Of a stretch of 64,000 bases of DNA, positions 261-7,099 are shown piece after piece. How positions within the stretch are numbered: position 1 is the first letter of the stretch; every line of letters begins with the position of its first letter. A model generated the notes under the pieces. The model was not told where the DNA came from. It worked only from the letters and a program-made list of their open reading frames with translations, and made no database searches. The stretch covers positions 512,031 to 576,030 of the forward strand of contig NZ_RKQK01000001.1 in NCBI RefSeq assembly GCF_003814915.1. The letters are read 5' to 3'. Position numbers and translations under genes: made by a program. Origin of the DNA: Pacificibacter maritimus. Its GTDB lineage: Bacteria; Pseudomonadota; Alphaproteobacteria; Rhodobacterales; Rhodobacteraceae.

Positions 261-2165
261 TTAGGGTTTAAGATCAAGGCGCAGCACACCCGCTGCAGGT
301 AGGATGCCAAACTCGGTCTCAACGGGTGCGTTTGTGTGATTAAACCAGAAGTCTTCGGTCGCAGTGCGCCGCGTGCGAATGCCATCGGGCAGGGCGCGGA
401 TCTCGAGGCCTGCGCGCGCGCAGAGCACAGCGATCACCCTGTCGAGCCCTTCCTGATCCAACCAAGCCCCGCAATAAAACAGACGGTCAGAACCGACCAA
501 AACAGGTGTTTCGCCGCTGGTTAGGACAGCTTTTGCCGTGCCTTCCAATTCTTCGCGGTACAATATCACTTGACCACCGCCCTCTATCGCGATCGGGCAA
601 TCTGGGCGCAGGCTTTCGACCCGCGCGACTGTGATGTCCAAGTTTGGCACATTTGGCGGTAAGGGTGTTGGCACTTCAAAGTCCCGCGTACGCGCGCCTG
701 TACGTGGGCCAAGTTGCACCACAGCATCGCTTGCGCAAAGTGCTTTGGTCAAATCTGTGTCCATGTGCATCAGGCCTGGCGCCAGAACAAGCTTATATCC
801 TGAAAATTCCCGAGTGGAGGCGGGGAGGATATCCACGCTCAACCCCGCTCGGCGCAGCGCGCGGTAGTGTTGAAACACAAGCTCAAAATAATCCAACTCT
901 GCCCCATGGGGTTGCACGGACCATGCCCAAGCAGCGTCATAATCAAAGATCAACGCAATGGGGGCTTGTACGGGTTGCACATCAGGGGCTTTTGCCAATT
1001 CGGCGGCGACTTGTGCCACTTCTTGCATCGCGGGCGCATCTTGGTAATCCGAGCGCTGTAGCCCTGCGTGCATCTGTTCTTGGGCGAAATGGGCCTGGCG
1101 CCAACGGAAATAACACACGGCCTCTGCGCCATGTGCAAAGGCTTCCCAACTCCAAAGACGCACCATGCCAGAAAGGGGCGCAGGGTTATAGGGGGCCCAG
1201 TTCACAGGACCAGGCTGCTGTTCCATAATCCACCACCGCCCACGGCCGACTGCGCGGTACAGATCATGATGAAAGGCCTGAAAATCAGGATCGCCTTGAC
1301 GCGCAAAGGCACGTTTATGGGCTGGCTCAGCCGTGACGCGATCCTCTAGAAAGCCCAAAGGATAACTGTCCCATGTGGCGATTTCCATATCTTCGTTCAG
1401 TTTGAAATGATCGAAATCGGTCGTGCGTCCCATGTAGTTATGCGACACAGGCGCAGATGAATGGGCTTTGATTGCTTCCACTTGCATTTGATTAAAAGCA
1501 ACAACTTGATCTGAGCTGAACCGATGAAAGGCCATGGAATGGGCGAAATTGGGTACAGTGACAGTCAAATTCGGTAAGTCAATTTCATCAAATGACTGGT
1601 AGTTCATGGACCAAAACACATTGCCCCAAGCCGCGTTCAACGCTTCAATCGAGGCGTAGCGTTCACTGAGCCATCGTTGAAATGCGCCGCGGGCCGCATC
1701 TGAATAGGATATGGTTGTGTCGTGGCAGCCATATTCATTATCTGTTTGCCATGCGCCCACATATGGGTTTTGTCCATAGCGTTTTGCCATCAATCGTGTG
1801 ATACGCTGACTTTCTTTGCGGTAACCTAAGTGAGAAAAGCAATAGTGGCGTCTGGATCCAAATTTGCGTGGGCGTCCTTCGGCATCAAGGGCCAACATAT
1901 CGGGGTGGCGGTCTAGCATCCAACGCGGCGGGGTGGCGGTTGGCGTGCCTAGCACAACTTTTAAACCCGCGCGGCCCAAGGTTTCAATCGCACGGTCTAA
2001 CCAGCCCCATTGCAAATCCTCTGGGTTTGGTTCGATTTGACCCCAAGAAAATTCCCCGATGCGCACCCAAGTCAGACCCAGTTCGGCCATGCGTTTTGCG
2101 TCATTGGCCCAAGTGTCTTCTGGCCAGTGTTCAGGATAATAACAGGTTCCTAGGGTGCGTTTCAT
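261..2165 (-). CDS. Beta-galactosidase, glycoside hydrolase family 42
   Basis: This 634-residue protein has the usual length and opening of GH42 enzymes (CYYPEHWPEDTW near residues 8-19), which release galactose from beta-galactosides. The acid/base glutamate is visible as E144 in TDNEYG, and the likely nucleophile is E315 in WWIMEQQPG. The catalytic TIM barrel is followed by a trimerisation domain with a Rossmann-like fold and a short beta C-terminal domain. No signal peptide is seen, so it should be cytoplasmic and act on imported sugars. It is the last gene of a minus-strand operon and overlaps the lactonase gene by 4 bp. Its product, galactose, is the expected input of the oxidative pathway encoded upstream. 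It appears intact. Confidence 0.93.
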   Translation of the reverse strand: MKRTLGTCYYPEHWPEDTWANDAKRMAELGLTWVRIGEFSWGQIEPNPEDLQWGWLDRAIETLGRAGLKVVLGTPTATPPRWMLDRHPDMLALDAEGRPRKFGSRRHYCFSHLGYRKESQRITRLMAKRYGQNPYVGAWQTDNEYGCHDTTISYSDAARGAFQRWLSERYASIEALNAAWGNVFWSMNYQSFDEIDLPNLTVTVPNFAHSMAFHRFSSDQVVAFNQMQVEAIKAHSSAPVSHNYMGRTTDFDHFKLNEDMEIATWDSYPLGFLEDRVTAEPAHKRAFARQGDPDFQAFHHDLYRAVGRGRWWIMEQQPGPVNWAPYNPAPLSGMVRLWSWEAFAHGAEAVCYFRWRQAHFAQEQMHAGLQRSDYQDAPAMQEVAQVAAELAKAPDVQPVQAPIALIFDYDAAWAWSVQPHGAELDYFELVFQHYRALRRAGLSVDILPASTREFSGYKLVLAPGLMHMDTDLTKALCASDAVVQLGPRTGARTRDFEVPTPLPPNVPNLDITVARVESLRPDCPIAIEGGGQVILYREELEGTAKAVLTSGETPVLVGSDRLFYCGAWLDQEGLDRVIAVLCARAGLEIRALPDGIRTRRTATEDFWFNHTNAPVETEFGILPAAGVLRLDLKP

Positions 2166-3091
2166 TTTGGGCTGCCTTGTGTTGTATCCCCTTGCTTTGC
2201 GTCCTCAGGGGGGACGATAAAGCTGTCGCGATCTGAAGATATGTGGGGCGCTGTGACATGAACTTGATGTTCGCGCTGGCCTGTAAACTGGGTTGGGAAC
2301 TTATATGTTTTGCCCGCCATAGGGTCATTGCTGACCCCTTCGGCGGCTGTGGTGACAAAAAGTGTTGTCAGATCGTCACCGCCAAAGGCAGGGCAGGTGA
2401 CCTGCGTGGTCGGCAGTTGGATAGCCTCGCGAAAGGTGCCGTCTGGGCTGTAACAGGCCACGCGACCTGCGCCCCATTGGGCATTCCAAAAATTACCTTG
2501 GGCATCCACAACGGCACCATCTGGGCCGAAGTCCTGATCGCTTAAATCTATAAACACGACGGGGTCGCCTTTTGGCCATCCGTCAAGATCCAGCGCTTGC
2601 CGCAAGATCCGCCCTTTGGCCGTATCGGTGAAATAGGCCTGTTGCCCATCAGGGGCAAAGCAGATGGCGTTTGAAATTGTGATATCGGCATAAAGCTGAC
2701 GTATCTGGCCATTATAATAGCGGTAAATCGCGCCTGCGTTTGGTTCTGCTTTGATGCCCATCGTGCCAATCCAAAACCCGCCAAAAGGGTCAGCGCGCCC
2801 ATCATTGGAGCGATTTAAAGGTTTGTCAGATTCTAGATCGGCGCGCTTTTCACATCGGCCTGTGTCGATATGAAACTGCCAAAGCGCCGTGGCGCTGGCG
2901 ATCAAAAGATGATCGTGATCTATCCAGCCCGCCGCTGACACATGTTCATCAAAGTGCCAACTGCGTTCTGTTTCACCTATGGTGGTGAAAAGGCGTTTGC
3001 CCAAAATATCAAACCAAAAAAACTGCCCGCGCAAAGGGTGCCACAGTGCGCCTTCGCCCAAGGTGCAAGCTCTGTGAGACAAGACAGTCAT
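2162..3091 (-). CDS. SMP-30/gluconolactonase-family sugar lactonase
   Basis: This 309-residue protein belongs to the SMP-30/regucalcin/gluconolactonase family of six-bladed beta propellers. Family features visible are the N-terminal LGEGALWHP metal-ligand segment (Glu), the NRSNDGRADPFGGFWIGTMG block near residues 93-112, and the FGPDGAVVDAQGNFW motif carrying the metal-binding Asp. In this operon the likely substrate is galactono-1,4-lactone formed by the sugar dehydrogenase, opened to galactonate. It overlaps both neighbours by 4 bp (beta-galactosidase downstream, aldolase upstream), which suggests translational coupling. Family assignment is firm; substrate is inferred from the neighbours, and arabinono- or gluconolactone are alternatives. 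Confidence 0.88.
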   Translation of the reverse strand: MTVLSHRACTLGEGALWHPLRGQFFWFDILGKRLFTTIGETERSWHFDEHVSAAGWIDHDHLLIASATALWQFHIDTGRCEKRADLESDKPLNRSNDGRADPFGGFWIGTMGIKAEPNAGAIYRYYNGQIRQLYADITISNAICFAPDGQQAYFTDTAKGRILRQALDLDGWPKGDPVVFIDLSDQDFGPDGAVVDAQGNFWNAQWGAGRVACYSPDGTFREAIQLPTTQVTCPAFGGDDLTTLFVTTAAEGVSNDPMAGKTYKFPTQFTGQREHQVHVTAPHISSDRDSFIVPPEDAKQGDTTQGSPK

Positions 3092-3696
3092 GATCCAAAG
3101 GCCGCGTCATAGGCTGCGACAACTTCCAAAGCTTTCGCGCTTACTTCATCAGCCGTCCAGCCAGGTTTGTAGATACTGGACCCTAACCCGAACCCTGTGA
3201 TGCCCGCCGCATGCCATGCGGCAAAATCCGAAGGCCCGACACCGCCCACCGCATAGGCTTTGGTCTGGGGCGGCAAGACGGCATTTATGGCGGAAAACCC
3301 ATCTAGGCCCAGCTTGAAGGCGGGAAATAGTTTGATCCCATCTGCACCTGCGCGCAGAGCTGAGAAGGCTTCTGTTGGTGTTAAAACACCCGGATAAGAC
3401 GCCATGTTATGGGCTTTTGTCGCTTTGATCACCGCTGGATTGCAATCGGGTGAGACAACCATATCTGCGCCGATTTGGGCAAGCCTCTCCACATCTGCCA
3501 CGGTCAAAACGGTGCCCGCGCCAATCTTGGCATCTGTGCCTGCGTGGTTGATCATCTGTTCGATGGTTTCAAACGGATTGGGTGAATTGAGCGGCACTTC
3601 GATTTTGCTGATGCCTGCGCTTATCAGGGCATCGGTGATGTCCAAAGCTTCATGGGTCTGAATGCCGCGCAAAATTGCAATGATTTCTCGGCTCAT
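3088..3696 (-). CDS. dgoA: 2-dehydro-3-deoxy-6-phosphogalactonate (KDPGal) aldolase
   Basis: This 202-residue class I aldolase belongs to the KDPG/KDPGal family. It cleaves 2-keto-3-deoxy-6-phosphogalactonate to pyruvate and glyceraldehyde 3-phosphate. The Schiff-base lysine is K122 in GIKLFPAF and the catalytic glutamate is E33 in KIEVPLNSP; GAGTVLT and the phosphate-binding GLGSSIYKPG end are also typical of DgoA. It overlaps the KDGal kinase gene upstream and the lactonase gene downstream by 4 bp each. Next to a DgoK-type kinase, DgoA is preferred over the Entner-Doudoroff KDPG aldolase Eda. All visible catalytic residues are intact. Confidence 0.92.
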   Translation of the reverse strand: MSREIIAILRGIQTHEALDITDALISAGISKIEVPLNSPNPFETIEQMINHAGTDAKIGAGTVLTVADVERLAQIGADMVVSPDCNPAVIKATKAHNMASYPGVLTPTEAFSALRAGADGIKLFPAFKLGLDGFSAINAVLPPQTKAYAVGGVGPSDFAAWHAAGITGFGLGSSIYKPGWTADEVSAKALEVVAAYDAAFGS

Positions 3697-4607
3697 GTTG
3701 CAGCCCTTTCTTGTGCTAGATAGGCCGCAATAAGGCCCGCGAGCGTCATGGTTTCTGCATCGACGCTGCGCGCTGCGACGCCTTGTGATATGAGTGCTGT
3801 TTCATAGATTGCGGCCAAAGATGACGCGCCAATGATGACGATGTTTTGCTCCAGCCAATACGGTTTTGCCGCCGCCAGTTCTGCCCCGATCAACAGAGCA
3901 GACAATCGCGCGCGCGCCGCAGCAGGGGGCAAATCATCCAGCAGGCTTTCAGCGCGCAGGCCAAACAGCTTTGCGGCCAAATCCGAAGGGCGGGACAGGG
4001 TGTCATTGAGGCCTGACACAAAGCTTTCTTGATCCCAATCTGTACCGATGGAATGGCGCAAAACAGAGTTTTGGCTGAGCAAAGCAAAGAGTTCGCCCGT
4101 CATAAAGGTGCGAAAGCTTACAATTTCGCCCGCGCTGATATGCGCCCATTTGGAATGGGTGCCTGGAAGGCAGATGACACCGTCAAAATCGGGTTCCTGA
4201 GCCAGAAATCCCGCGATCTGCGTTTCTTCGCCGCGCATAACATCTGCAGGGCTGTTTTGTTTTACCCCTGATAGGATATGCACCTGAAACCTGTCTGTGT
4301 GAAAGGCTGTGGCGCTTTTCACATCATTCGGGATGCAGGGCACAGCGGCGTATGGCGCTTCTGCCCAGCCTTGTTTTGCGCCAGCCATGCCACAAATGAA
4401 GGTAGGGATGGGGGCGTCTTGCGCAAAGAGATCACCAATTAAATTTGCCAGTGTCGGGGCAAATTGATCTTGCGTTAAACGGCTCATGCCTCTGTCACTG
4501 TCACGCCGCGCAATTACAGTTTTTCCCGCGCCCATGGCCCAAGCGCGCAGATGGGTTGTGCCCCAATCTACGGCCAACCAAGTGGCGTTGTGATCTGCTT
4601 GGGTCAT
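3693..4607 (-). CDS. dgoK: 2-dehydro-3-deoxygalactonokinase
   Basis: This 304-residue protein has the features of DgoK sugar-acid kinases: the N-terminal phosphate loop with VDWGTTHLRAW near residues 13-23, the MAGAKQGW motif, and the LPGTHSKWAHI block. It phosphorylates 2-keto-3-deoxygalactonate at C6 with ATP, supplying the DgoA aldolase. It overlaps the aldolase gene (4 bp) and the SDR gene (4 bp). The dehydratase that should make its substrate is broken in this operon, so the kinase may now depend on a dehydratase encoded elsewhere or on external 2-keto-3-deoxy sugar acids. Confidence 0.92.
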   Translation of the reverse strand: MTQADHNATWLAVDWGTTHLRAWAMGAGKTVIARRDSDRGMSRLTQDQFAPTLANLIGDLFAQDAPIPTFICGMAGAKQGWAEAPYAAVPCIPNDVKSATAFHTDRFQVHILSGVKQNSPADVMRGEETQIAGFLAQEPDFDGVICLPGTHSKWAHISAGEIVSFRTFMTGELFALLSQNSVLRHSIGTDWDQESFVSGLNDTLSRPSDLAAKLFGLRAESLLDDLPPAAARARLSALLIGAELAAAKPYWLEQNIVIIGASSLAAIYETALISQGVAARSVDAETMTLAGLIAAYLAQERAAT

Positions 4608-5371
4608 CCCGTCACCACCACACCGCCATCAACGACCACGGACTGACCTGTCATCATGCGGCTGGCATTTGAGGTTAAAAACTGCGCCGAGGCAACGATA
4701 TCGTCGGGGGCAAGATGATCCTTTAGACATTGGCGGTCCAAATGTGCTGCAAGGGAGGCTGGATCAGCCCACATATCAAGTTGTTTTTGCGTCAAAACCC
4801 AACCGGGGGCCAAAGCGTTGACGCGAATTTTATCGGGGCCAAATTCTCGCGCCAAGGAGCGTGTGAGACCATTTATACCTGAATTCGCGGCGGTATAGGC
4901 GGGGTAGCCTGTGTCGCCAAACATGTAGCTGATCGAGGTAAAGTTCACAATTGCCCCGCCGCCTGCTGCGCGCATGCCTTCGATGACGGATTGGCAGGCA
5001 AAGAAATAGGCTTTTAGGTTGATGGCTTGTGACCAGTCCCAAAAGGCTTCGTCGACGGTAAGTGTGTCGTGGCGTTGATCATTGGCCGCGTTATTGATGA
5101 GCGCAGTGATCGGCCCATGGGCTTTGGCCCCTTGGGCAATCGCGGCTTTTAGGGCTTGGATATCGGTAATATCACATTGGATAAACAGGGGTTTATTGCC
5201 TATTTCGGCTTCCATTTGATCAACAAAATCAGAGGCATCAGAGCGCCCGACAAATGCGACTTTCGCGCCTTGTTGCAAAAATCCTTTCGTCAGGGCTGCG
5301 CCAATTCCTGAACCGCCGCCTGTGATGAAAACGGATTTTTCCTTGAGATCATGAAAGGTGACGTCGTTCAT
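4604..5371 (-). CDS. SDR-family sugar 1-dehydrogenase-like protein lacking the catalytic lysine
   Basis: This 255-residue classical short-chain dehydrogenase resembles xylose/arabinose/galactose 1-dehydrogenases. The cofactor loop TGGGSGIG (residues 18-25), NNAA (93-96), Asn118, Ser146 and Tyr159 are in place. The lysine expected four residues after the tyrosine is Asn163: the segment reads YTAANSG, and the codon is AAT at 4883-4885 on the reverse strand. In classical SDRs this lysine lowers the tyrosine pKa and binds the nicotinamide ribose, so activity is doubtful. Its start overlaps the stop of the broken dehydratase (ATGA). By context it would oxidise D-galactose to galactonolactone. Either it is inactivated or it is a divergent enzyme; the first is favoured because the adjacent gene is dead. 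Confidence 0.85.
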   Translation of the reverse strand: MNDVTFHDLKEKSVFITGGGSGIGAALTKGFLQQGAKVAFVGRSDASDFVDQMEAEIGNKPLFIQCDITDIQALKAAIAQGAKAHGPITALINNAANDQRHDTLTVDEAFWDWSQAINLKAYFFACQSVIEGMRAAGGGAIVNFTSISYMFGDTGYPAYTAANSGINGLTRSLAREFGPDKIRVNALAPGWVLTQKQLDMWADPASLAAHLDRQCLKDHLAPDDIVASAQFLTSNASRMMTGQSVVVDGGVVVTG

Positions 5372-6116
5372 CAGTGGCTCTCCCGTGTGTCAAGGCGGGT
5401 GTCTTTGCCGACAAGAAAATCGAGATCCGCGCCCTGTTCTGCATGTAAAACTGTGTCGATATAAAGTTTGGCGTCGCCGCGTGTGTAGGGCGCGGGGTCT
5501 GGCGTCCAGTTTGCGCGGCGCTGTTCAAGTTCGGCGTCCTTCACCAGTAGATCAAGCTGGCCATGTGAGGCACTGACCCGAATGCGATCGCCAGTTTGGA
5601 CCAAGCCAAGCGTGCCGCCAGCTTGGCTTTCAGGCGAGACATGAAAAATAACCGTACCATATGCCGTGCCTGACATGCGCCCGTCAGAAATGCGGATCAT
5701 ATCGCGCACCCCTTCGCGCACAAGTTTCGCAGGGATCGGCATATTGCCAACCTCTGGCATGCGAGGATAGCCTTTGGGGCCGAGGCCTTTGAGCACAAAA
5801 ATTGAATCTGCTGTGACAGGCAAATCATCGCGGTCGATATTGGCTTTAAGGTCTTCGTCGACCATTTCAACAAGGTCATATCGCCTGCGCGCAGGGCTTC
5901 GGAGAACTTCCAAACGCCGCGTTTGACGCCTTCGGCCGGATCGCTCAGGCCAGAATTGCAGGGGGGCAGTTCTGACCATGTATTGCAAATCCCGATGATG
6001 GGGCGGCCATCAAAAGCGTGGTCTGGAAACCCTTGATTTTTCATCCATGACCGATGGATAAAACCGTCTTTGTCATGCGTTTCATACCAATGGGCGCTGC
6101 GGCGTATTTTCGTCAT
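5371..6116 (-). pseudogene. IlvD/Edd-family sugar-acid dehydratase remnant (internal deletions and frameshift)
   Basis: Two reading frames together carry the ends of an IlvD/Edd dehydratase (usually about 570-600 residues). Starting at 6116, the first frame gives the N-terminus: MTKIRRSAHWYETHDKDG, GIICNTWSE-like ICNTWSELPPCN, then VKRGVW. There it jumps near 5910-5915 to a segment normally about 100 residues further on (KFSEALRAGD). Near 5870-5885 it changes frame and continues as the C-terminal domain, with LGPKGYPRMPEVGNM, RISDGRMSGTAYGT and a RESH end. About 1 kb of the gene is missing, including most cluster and Mg ligands. It was the first gene of the operon, probably a galactonate or arabinonate dehydratase. 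The stop still overlaps the SDR start, so the C-terminal frame may act only as a translated leader. Confidence 0.88.
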
Positions 6117-6203
6117 GGTGTTTTCTTTCGCTTTCGCGCGTCTTTGACCTTTTGAGATAGCCGTGACCCTTTGAGTGAGCCGTGGTGCAAAGAATGCTTG
6201 TCT

Positions 6204-6236
6204 CAAATAGTGAAACCAGTTATCAATTATTGAAAC
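6204..6236. promoter_or_regulatory. Candidate operator: 13-bp direct repeats between dehydratase remnant and IclR gene
   Basis: Two near-identical 13-mers, CAAATAGTGAAAC (6204-6216) and CAATTATTGAAAC (6224-6236), lie 20 bp apart start to start, about two helical turns, on one face of the DNA. They sit in the 188-bp divergent promoter region between the galactoside operon and the IclR-family gene. IclR proteins commonly bind such paired sites in divergent promoters. Binding by the adjacent regulator is inferred, not shown. Confidence 0.5.
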
Positions 6237-6304
6237 TATGAGGCGGCGATACCCATCATGTCAACTGTTTCCTGACACTCACGGATCGCAGTCGGAGAAA
6301 ATGA

Positions 6305-7099
6305 ATGACGGATCACAAGACAGACATACAGATCACAGACGGCACTGTCGGCAAAGCGTTACATGTGTTGGATATGGTTGCCGAACAGATGCGCCCCCTA
6401 AGGTTCAACGAAATTTTGAAGCGCAGCCCTTACCCCAAAGCGACCCTATATAGGTTGCTGCAAACCCTGACAAATCAGGGGCTTTTATCATACGACGCTG
6501 GGATGCAGACCTACAAACCCGGCATGAGGTTGGTGCGATTGGCCCATGCTGCGTGGCGCCAAAGCTCGCTTGCCCCTGTGGCGCGGCCTTACTTGGATGA
6601 CCTGTCCAGAGCGCTTGGGGAAACAATCCATCTGGCGCAATTGGATCGGGGGCAGGTGGTTTATGTGGATAAACGCAATGCCCAAGATCCGATTGAGATG
6701 TTCTCACAGGCGGGCAAAGTCGGGCCAGGCTATTGTACAGGGGTTGGCAAGGCCATGATGGCGTTTCTCTCACCTGATGCCCAAAACGAAGCCATTCGGT
6801 ATCAATCGTTTTATGCCCATACAGATCATACTCTGACCAGTGATACGGCATTGCGCGCCGAACTGGCGCAGATTCACGACAGGGGGATCGCCTATGACCG
6901 CGAAGAACATGAAGTGGGGATCGTTTGCATCGCCGCGCCGATCTTGACCGCTCAGGGCCGCATGTTAGGCGCCATCTCCATCACTGTGCCAAGCCGTGAT
7001 GAAGGATTAAAAAGGTTGGAAACCTTCCGTCCCGCTATTTTGACCACAGCTGGCCACATTGGTAAAGCGGCAGAAAATTGGGAGTTTCCAAGCCTTTAA
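6305..7099 (+). CDS. IclR-family transcriptional regulator of the galactoside operon (inferred)
   Basis: This 264-residue protein has the two-domain IclR layout. An N-terminal winged helix-turn-helix covers roughly residues 13-80 (VGKALHVLDMV, KATLYRLLQTL, NQGLLSYD). A C-terminal effector domain follows, with the IclR signature around GYCTGVGKAMMAFL and GIAYDREEHEVGIVCIAAPI. The start at 6305 is chosen because GGAG at 6294-6297 lies 7 bp before it; an ATG at 6301 is in another frame. It is divergent from the sugar operon and probably controls it, with a sugar acid or lactone as likely ligand. It looks intact although the operon's first gene is broken. Confidence 0.92.
   Translation: MTDHKTDIQITDGTVGKALHVLDMVAEQMRPLRFNEILKRSPYPKATLYRLLQTLTNQGLLSYDAGMQTYKPGMRLVRLAHAAWRQSSLAPVARPYLDDLSRALGETIHLAQLDRGQVVYVDKRNAQDPIEMFSQAGKVGPGYCTGVGKAMMAFLSPDAQNEAIRYQSFYAHTDHTLTSDTALRAELAQIHDRGIAYDREEHEVGIVCIAAPILTAQGRMLGAISITVPSRDEGLKRLETFRPAILTTAGHIGKAAENWEFPSL

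Follow-up and report, generated by a model that had tools for sequence, protein, structure and literature searches.

The window analyzed here is a stretch of 64,000 nucleotides from Pacificibacter maritimus (G000:C1:512031-576030), whose genome of 3.08 Mb is assembled into eight contigs and 99.94% complete. Near the start of the window a run of minus-strand genes is arranged in the order dehydratase remnant, SDR sugar dehydrogenase, DgoK, DgoA, lactonase and GH42 beta-galactosidase (Table 1), and past the GH42 gene follow an AraC regulator whose MelR match stays below cut-off, the genes of an ABC transporter of the Opp type and a GH4 alpha-galactosidase scoring 665 bits (cut-off 486). The region is a galactoside locus carrying De Ley-Doudoroff genes, with a putative galactose dehydrogenase, a putative lactonase, DgoK and DgoA assigned by family match and the dehydratase missing. 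Apart from the remnant all genes of the operon are open reading frames, as the initial annotation had stated for the genes downstream. The ATG of the SDR gene overlaps the stop codon of the remnant (TGATG), and a ribosome-site-like GGGAGAG ahead of this ATG lies within the RESH codons of the remnant (5371-5400), with a similar arrangement in the six orthologs printed; this motif may explain why the 3' end of the remnant survived.

Table 1. Positions of the dehydratase remnant, its junctions and the surrounding genes in the window.
Feature	Position	Strand	Remark
Remnant segment 1, dehydratase codons 1-69 (MTKIRRS...VKRGVW)	5910..6116	-	from ortholog alignment
Junction 1, common word GTTTGG	5910-5915	-	final 6 nt of segment 1
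Remnant segment 2, KFSEALRAGDMTL	5871..5909	-	frame as in segment 1; 285 nt gone ahead of the segment
Junction 2, frame-changing 184-nt deletion after segment 2	about 5871-5873	-	
Remnant segment 3, mid-gene island VEMVDEDLK	5845..5873	-	other frame; shares TTG of junction 2 with segment 2
Junction 3, common word (EDLK)	5845-5856	-	final 12 nt of segment 3; 495-501 nt gone afterwards
Remnant segment 4, C-terminal 157 codons (ANIDRDD...RESH) and stop	5371..5844	-	partial ILV_EDD_C domain
Premature stop in the frame of the original ATG	5697..5699	-	
SDR sugar dehydrogenase, probable D-galactose 1-dehydrogenase	4604..5371	-	specificity inferred
2-keto-3-deoxygalactonokinase (DgoK)	3693..4607	-	PF05035
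2-dehydro-3-deoxy-6-phosphogalactonate aldolase (DgoA)	3088..3696	-	NF006600, 259 bits (cut-off 207)
SMP-30/gluconolactonase-like lactonase (SGL)	2162..3091	-	PF08450
GH42 beta-galactosidase	261..2165	-	family match
IclR-family regulator	6305..7099	+	divergent, upstream of the remnant

The region 5371-6116 is a real remnant, a pseudogene. Alignment to intact dehydratases (29 orthologs), the check proposed in the initial annotation, resolves it into four pieces, in collinear order, of an IlvD/Edd sugar-acid dehydratase of 569 codons, with three deletions between them. The N- and C-terminal signatures described earlier in two frames were both found on the minus strand, and VKRGVW is indeed joined to KFSEALRAGD, with 95 codons (285 nt) omitted in 23 of the 29 aligned orthologs, in line with the roughly 100 residues given earlier. 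The two deletions originally assumed have to be corrected to three, as the last two had been merged and the island VEMVDEDLK lies between them. In total, the deletions of 285, 184 and 495 nt (the last one 501 nt in comparison to longer orthologs) remove 964 nt, close to the 1 kb first estimated, and the length balance adds up (743 + 964 = 1707 nt, or 569 codons). The original start codon is retained (ATG at 6116), the frame beginning there terminates about 330 nt ahead of the SDR gene, and segment 4 is read in the frame of segment 3.

Using spliced alignment, the combination 285+184+495/501 was the best solution in 13 of 29 orthologs and 285+679/685, with the island unresolved, in 10; the divergent answers in the remaining 6 are probably due to the alignment method, which permits no small indels. 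Over its 27 nt, the island reaches a median of 21.5 identities at the mid-gene site versus 14 at the 3' partner and 15 at the best other place, and in the 15 nt outside the common word the mid-gene site beats the 3' partner in all 26 orthologs that allowed placement of the two sites (3 of 29 did not). At junction 1 the deletion ends of the orthologs agree at 5-6 of 6 nt (VW codons; n = 25 of 29), with a median fraction of 0.008 for equally good in-frame pairs at the same offset, and at junction 3 the agreement is 9 of 12 nt in the median (range 7-12, EDLK codons; n = 25 of 29) with a corresponding fraction of 0.003. For junction 2 reading the alignment by eye indicated a common word of only about 3 nt (TTG). 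All these words are estimates from the sequences of orthologs and not from the ancestor's own. Direct repeats of at least 12 nt are absent from 5300-6300, which as post-deletion sequence is uninformative on the ancestor. The usual reading of such junctions is deletion between short repeats, either in one complex event or in three. A scan for promoters and terminators in 5371-6320 yielded matches to consensus only.

Homology and operon position identify the origin of the remnant as an IlvD/Edd sugar-acid dehydratase, and NF004784 matches at 1.6e-62 with 212 bits, short of the 539 bits required of a full-length protein, as expected of a fragment. The C-terminal piece matches PF24877 at 5e-39, covering positions 53-191 of this 191-position profile, and shares 82% identity with the best ortholog, so chance resemblance is no concern. 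In contrast to a gene with complete N- and C-terminal IlvD/Edd domains, the PF00920 match of the remnant spans just 33 of 316 positions with 21 bits (cut-off 27). Besides Cys200, the motifs of IlvD/Edd dehydratases presumably provide two further cysteine ligands of the Fe-S cluster. The motifs GCDKT and CMTMGT are lost, PCN at the first cysteine site is retained, and MSGTA as well as the final His are still present. With two of three cysteine sites gone, the remnant cannot be a normal dehydratase; the Fe-S role of Cys200 is described in PMC11316719.

Further IlvD/Edd genes had been proposed as a possible replacement, and the genome contains three intact ones: IlvD (1138 bits, cut-off 710), Edd (974 bits, cut-off 708) and a paralog that passes the L-arabinonate dehydratase equivalog NF009559 (940.6 bits, cut-off 882). 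This L-arabinonate-type paralog lies at G000:C1:1321582-1323324 and carries the motifs with Cys, Ser and the terminal His, and its best solved relative is RlArDHT (5J83; 1120 bits over 576 residues). It belongs to a ChvE-Ggu-type L-arabinose operon elsewhere on the same contig, arranged as LysR, ChvE, ABC ATPase, GguB, dehydratase, Gfo/Idh/MocA-like dehydrogenase, DHDPS-like gene and aldehyde dehydrogenase. In detail, ChvE and GguB score above cut-offs, the aldehyde dehydrogenase has below-cut-off matches only and the Gfo-like and DHDPS-like genes have no NCBIfam match at 1e-20; the names of these three, of LysR and of the ABC ATPase are our own reading of the sequence.

For wild-type RlArDHT, kcat/Km values (per mM per min) of 930 with D-galactonate, 570 with L-arabinonate and 4400 with D-fuconate are given in PMC11316719. 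PMC9795676, citing earlier work, states that the same enzyme prefers L-arabinonate over D-galactonate, and also describes, for Rhizobium, a Gfo/Idh/MocA-type 1-dehydrogenase of L-arabinose and D-galactose. In PMC6336799 an L-arabinonate dehydratase from another bacterium is termed highly specific, which argues against simply presuming promiscuity. Judged by the RlArDHT kinetics, the paralog is probably able to dehydrate D-galactonate. A GalT gene of the Leloir route (PF01087) was not found in the genome. A DgoD-type substitute of the enolase superfamily was considered and rejected, as by eye none of the three PF13378 matches is DgoD-like: one adjoins TRAP-transporter-like genes, one is dipeptide-epimerase-like and one is enolase itself (below cut-off).

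Beyond the window genome, 294 other family genomes were sampled. Intact orthologs of the head gene, as looked for at the suggestion of the initial annotation, occur as an open remnant-type gene in 32 of them (E <= 1e-60), and the L-arabinonate type is present in 73 (E <= 1e-250). The SDR gene or a close homologue was found in 129 genomes (E <= 1e-75), 31 with and 98 without the remnant-type gene, and the latter divide into 26 with and 72 without the L-arabinonate type. The two dehydratase types show no significant anti-correlation (5 genomes with both, 7.9 expected, Fisher p 0.28), and we therefore rejected redundancy as a statistical driver of the loss. All five other sampled genomes with both types have both genes open, which indicates that redundancy alone does not cause loss.

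We opened 20 of the 98 SDR loci, chosen non-randomly, and 18 are SDR-dgoK operons whose stretch of 13-15 kb gave no IlvD/Edd match; a GH42 gene is present in 12 of them and an IclR gene in 13. The other two are L217, with another IlvD/Edd type beside SDR, and L227, with SDR alone. Among three plasmid matches without dehydratase that were opened, the one of Paracoccus seriniphilus is a dgo operon, and those of Sulfitobacter D7 and Thalassovita were ruled out. Traces of a dehydratase were found in none of 19 dehydratase-less dgo operons at E < 1e-3. The SDR-dgoK loci without IlvD/Edd in the stretch (L213, L215, L216, L218-L226, L228-L234) must rely on a dehydratase from elsewhere or of an unfamiliar kind. 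PF00920 genes number three or more in each of the 20 opened genomes, so that these probably contain a further paralog in addition to IlvD and Edd. One extra IlvD/Edd gene was read in each of 12 of these genomes, and each is 42-48% identical to both dehydratases of the window genome. Comparison of two of the extra genes with solved structures puts one closest to 7M3K, a Brucella protein named 'galactonate dehydratase' by its depositor, and the other closest to 5OYN. As a side observation in one of the 20 genomes, an IlvD/Edd-family gene at G070:C4:1288480-1289419 was matched in two pieces and is possibly frameshifted.

The regulator upstream of the remnant is 54-67% identical to the IclR genes of 13 of the 18 dehydratase-less operons, and no IclR gene was found in the dehydratase-bearing loci within the about 2-2.5 kb fetched upstream (L083 came without upstream sequence). 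Judged by IclR, the locus in the window looks like a hybrid.

Ten loci around relatives of the paralog (82-85% identity) were fetched from genus-mates; six (G001, G002, G003, G007, G012, G016) continue into dgoK-dgoA-lactonase and four do not. Twenty loci from other genera were a non-random selection, five picked for a nearby dgoK, five for also holding the remnant-type gene, nine with the place of dgoK unlisted and one (G216) with dgoK listed on another contig. Nine of these have dehydratase and dgoK-dgoA on one strand (L112-L119, L122), although in L115 and L116 they are separated by some 5 and 8 kb containing other genes; L121 is divergent, L125 has weaker dgoK/dgoA matches on the opposite strand and nine have neither. 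The five loci of genomes with both types lack dgoK-dgoA beside the L-arabinonate type in the stretch, as does the genome of the window, and the remnant-type gene was found in none of the 15 genomes in which an L-arabinonate-type dehydratase clusters with dgoK-dgoA. This clustering means that the dehydratase type is already paired in nature with the galactonate branch. In L098-L103, L112-L119 and L122 ChvE-Ggu-type L-arabinose operons run into or adjoin dgoK-dgoA-lactonase, and apparently one dehydratase serves two sugars there. The L-arabinonate-type dehydratase gene at G271:C6:56294-58027 contains an internal TAG.

Taken together, we consider it probable that the head dehydratase was lost through three deletions and that the galactonate step is covered in trans by the L-arabinonate-type paralog. 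The head gene of the De Ley-Doudoroff galactoside operon would have encoded an IlvD/Edd dehydratase, presumably for D-galactonate. It was inactivated by three deletions, of which two or more lie at short common words and may stem from slippage or end joining between short repeats, and it is decaying. The intact dehydratase of the ChvE-Ggu-type operon would then dehydrate D-galactonate in trans, and DgoK and DgoA of the remnant operon could complete the route. The operon would thus remain useful because D-galactonate dehydration is supplied from outside. Observed directly are the three deletions, an intact paralog closely similar to a characterized enzyme, open neighbors with ordinary pN/pS and the joining of this dehydratase type with dgoK and dgoA in relatives; the substrate in the organism, expression and the order of events are our inference. 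The galactose and arabinose operons may, however, not be co-induced. The initial annotation was right about the dead remnant, and of its two alternatives, a missing central step or a substitute dehydratase, the second is better supported in view of the intact paralog near RlArDHT, the seemingly constrained neighbors and the failure to find GalT.

The opposite view is that the galactose route is gone together with its dehydratase and that the other genes are intact solely because the loss is recent. The remnant itself fits, as it still displays mostly pre-loss constraint: segment 4 has a mean pN to orthologs of 0.155 compared with 0.113 among orthologs and a pN/pS of 0.234 versus 0.183, and segment 1 is not raised (pN 0.113 versus 0.110, pN/pS 0.151 versus 0.182), so the decay signal is moderate and the loss young relative to the branch. 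The pN/pS of the neighbors is not raised in comparison to the ortholog level (SDR 0.273/0.315, DgoK 0.455/0.495, DgoA 0.444/0.446, GH42 0.329/0.385, SGL 0.384/0.411), and their mean pN is at the ortholog level (SDR 0.202/0.208, DgoK 0.333/0.331, DgoA 0.310/0.291, GH42 0.256/0.254, SGL 0.287/0.289), where pS is close to saturation in all pN/pS comparisons, SGL was compared with nine orthologs without L065, L072 and L073 (which ran past stops, as no row of another gene did) and the short L083, and DgoA without the partial gene of L076. On these sequence measures the neighbors look to be under ordinary constraint. For changes at invariant sites, the window ranks 1 of 18 for DgoA, which speaks for a dead pathway, 3 of 20 for SDR, 4 of 20 for DgoK, 3 of 17 for GH42 (5 radical, most of all) and 6 of 10 for SGL; the ranks of DgoA, GH42 and SDR may reflect decay beginning in the neighbors or simply a long branch. 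As a suitable dehydratase is present in the genome and SDR-dgoK operons persist with no IlvD/Edd gene in the stretch in 18 of 20 opened loci, we regard a dead pathway as rather unlikely.

An assembly or sequencing artefact, with an intact gene collapsed, would account for the unusual finding of three closely spaced deletions. It would need three separate collapses in a nearly complete genome, the common words of about 3-12 nt are presumably too short to mislead an assembler, and the retained parts contain extra missense changes. Of 134 positions that are invariant in the family (18-19 orthologs), 7 are altered in the remnant, 4 of them radically (G-E, L-P, L-F, G-R, L-F, Y-D and Q-H overall), which is rank 1 of 19 genes; the next gene has 6 of 140 and the remainder at most 2. 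These changes favor real decay, and in combination with the short common words they make an assembly collapse very unlikely. Finally, we regard it as very unlikely that the frame of segments 3 and 4 continues to yield a small protein, for example a partner of the L-arabinonate-type dehydratase. Segment 4 is indeed stop-free with MSGTA and the terminal His retained, and the RlArDHT C-terminus completes the active site of the neighboring subunit with its last His (PMC11316719), but in the remnant the C-terminal domain is incomplete, two cysteine sites are gone, Y-to-D, G-to-R and other invariant-site changes have accumulated and a dedicated start or ribosome site is not established.

Loss of the head dehydratase covered in trans is, judged by sequence comparison, likely to be recurrent and tolerable. 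In a 39-row tree built from SDR and DgoK (the window plus 19 operons each with and without the head gene; L217 and L227 left out) both kinds are intermixed with 12-13 changes, at least 7 of them forced by well-supported branches, and the labels are no more clustered than shuffled ones (as low in 275 and 160 of 500 shuffles), in a tree that cannot separate gains, losses and transfer. The window adjoins L075 of G180 (support 98/86 for SDR alone, 84/76 for both proteins), which retains the head gene and also has the L-arabinonate type. We tentatively put forward, as a serious possibility, that in Rhodobacterales-type bacteria the galactoside operon has a detachable head gene, the galactonate dehydratase, repeatedly gained and lost because promiscuous dehydratases of the L-arabinonate or the xylonate/7M3K type serve the operon in trans, and that the window was caught losing it.

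As a pseudogene the remnant is ordinary, and it is informative as a snapshot of a seemingly recurrent loss. Read gene by gene the pathway appears broken, whereas the comparison suggests that a shared enzyme of another sugar's operon can fill gaps of this kind. Gene-by-gene completeness scores for sugar pathways in this bacterial group can mislead. The arabinose-operon dehydratase and growth on galactose form a testable pair. A literature search by title and beginning of the abstract yielded no treatment of an L-arabinonate dehydratase shared for galactonate in Rhodobacterales.

De Ley-Doudoroff galactoside loci of Rhodobacteraceae are described in PMC5507952, and the locus in the window resembles them in bringing together enzymes of this route, an IclR-family regulator and an alpha-galactosidase. 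It differs in that its dehydratase is a remnant and in having the Opp-type transporter, the GH4 enzyme and the AraC regulator instead of a CUT1 system. Intact head dehydratases (e.g., L035-L063) are 69-82% identical to the remnant in the C-terminal part and precede SDR and DgoK in 19 widely opened loci (one ends at the contig end), but unlike the remnant they are open frames of 568-700 codons with no internal stops. Among solved structures, RlArDHT from Rhizobium leguminosarum (5J83, 5J84, 9EVV) is related to the proposed substitute rather than to the remnant; for L035, an intact ortholog of the remnant, the nearest structure is 8EJ0.
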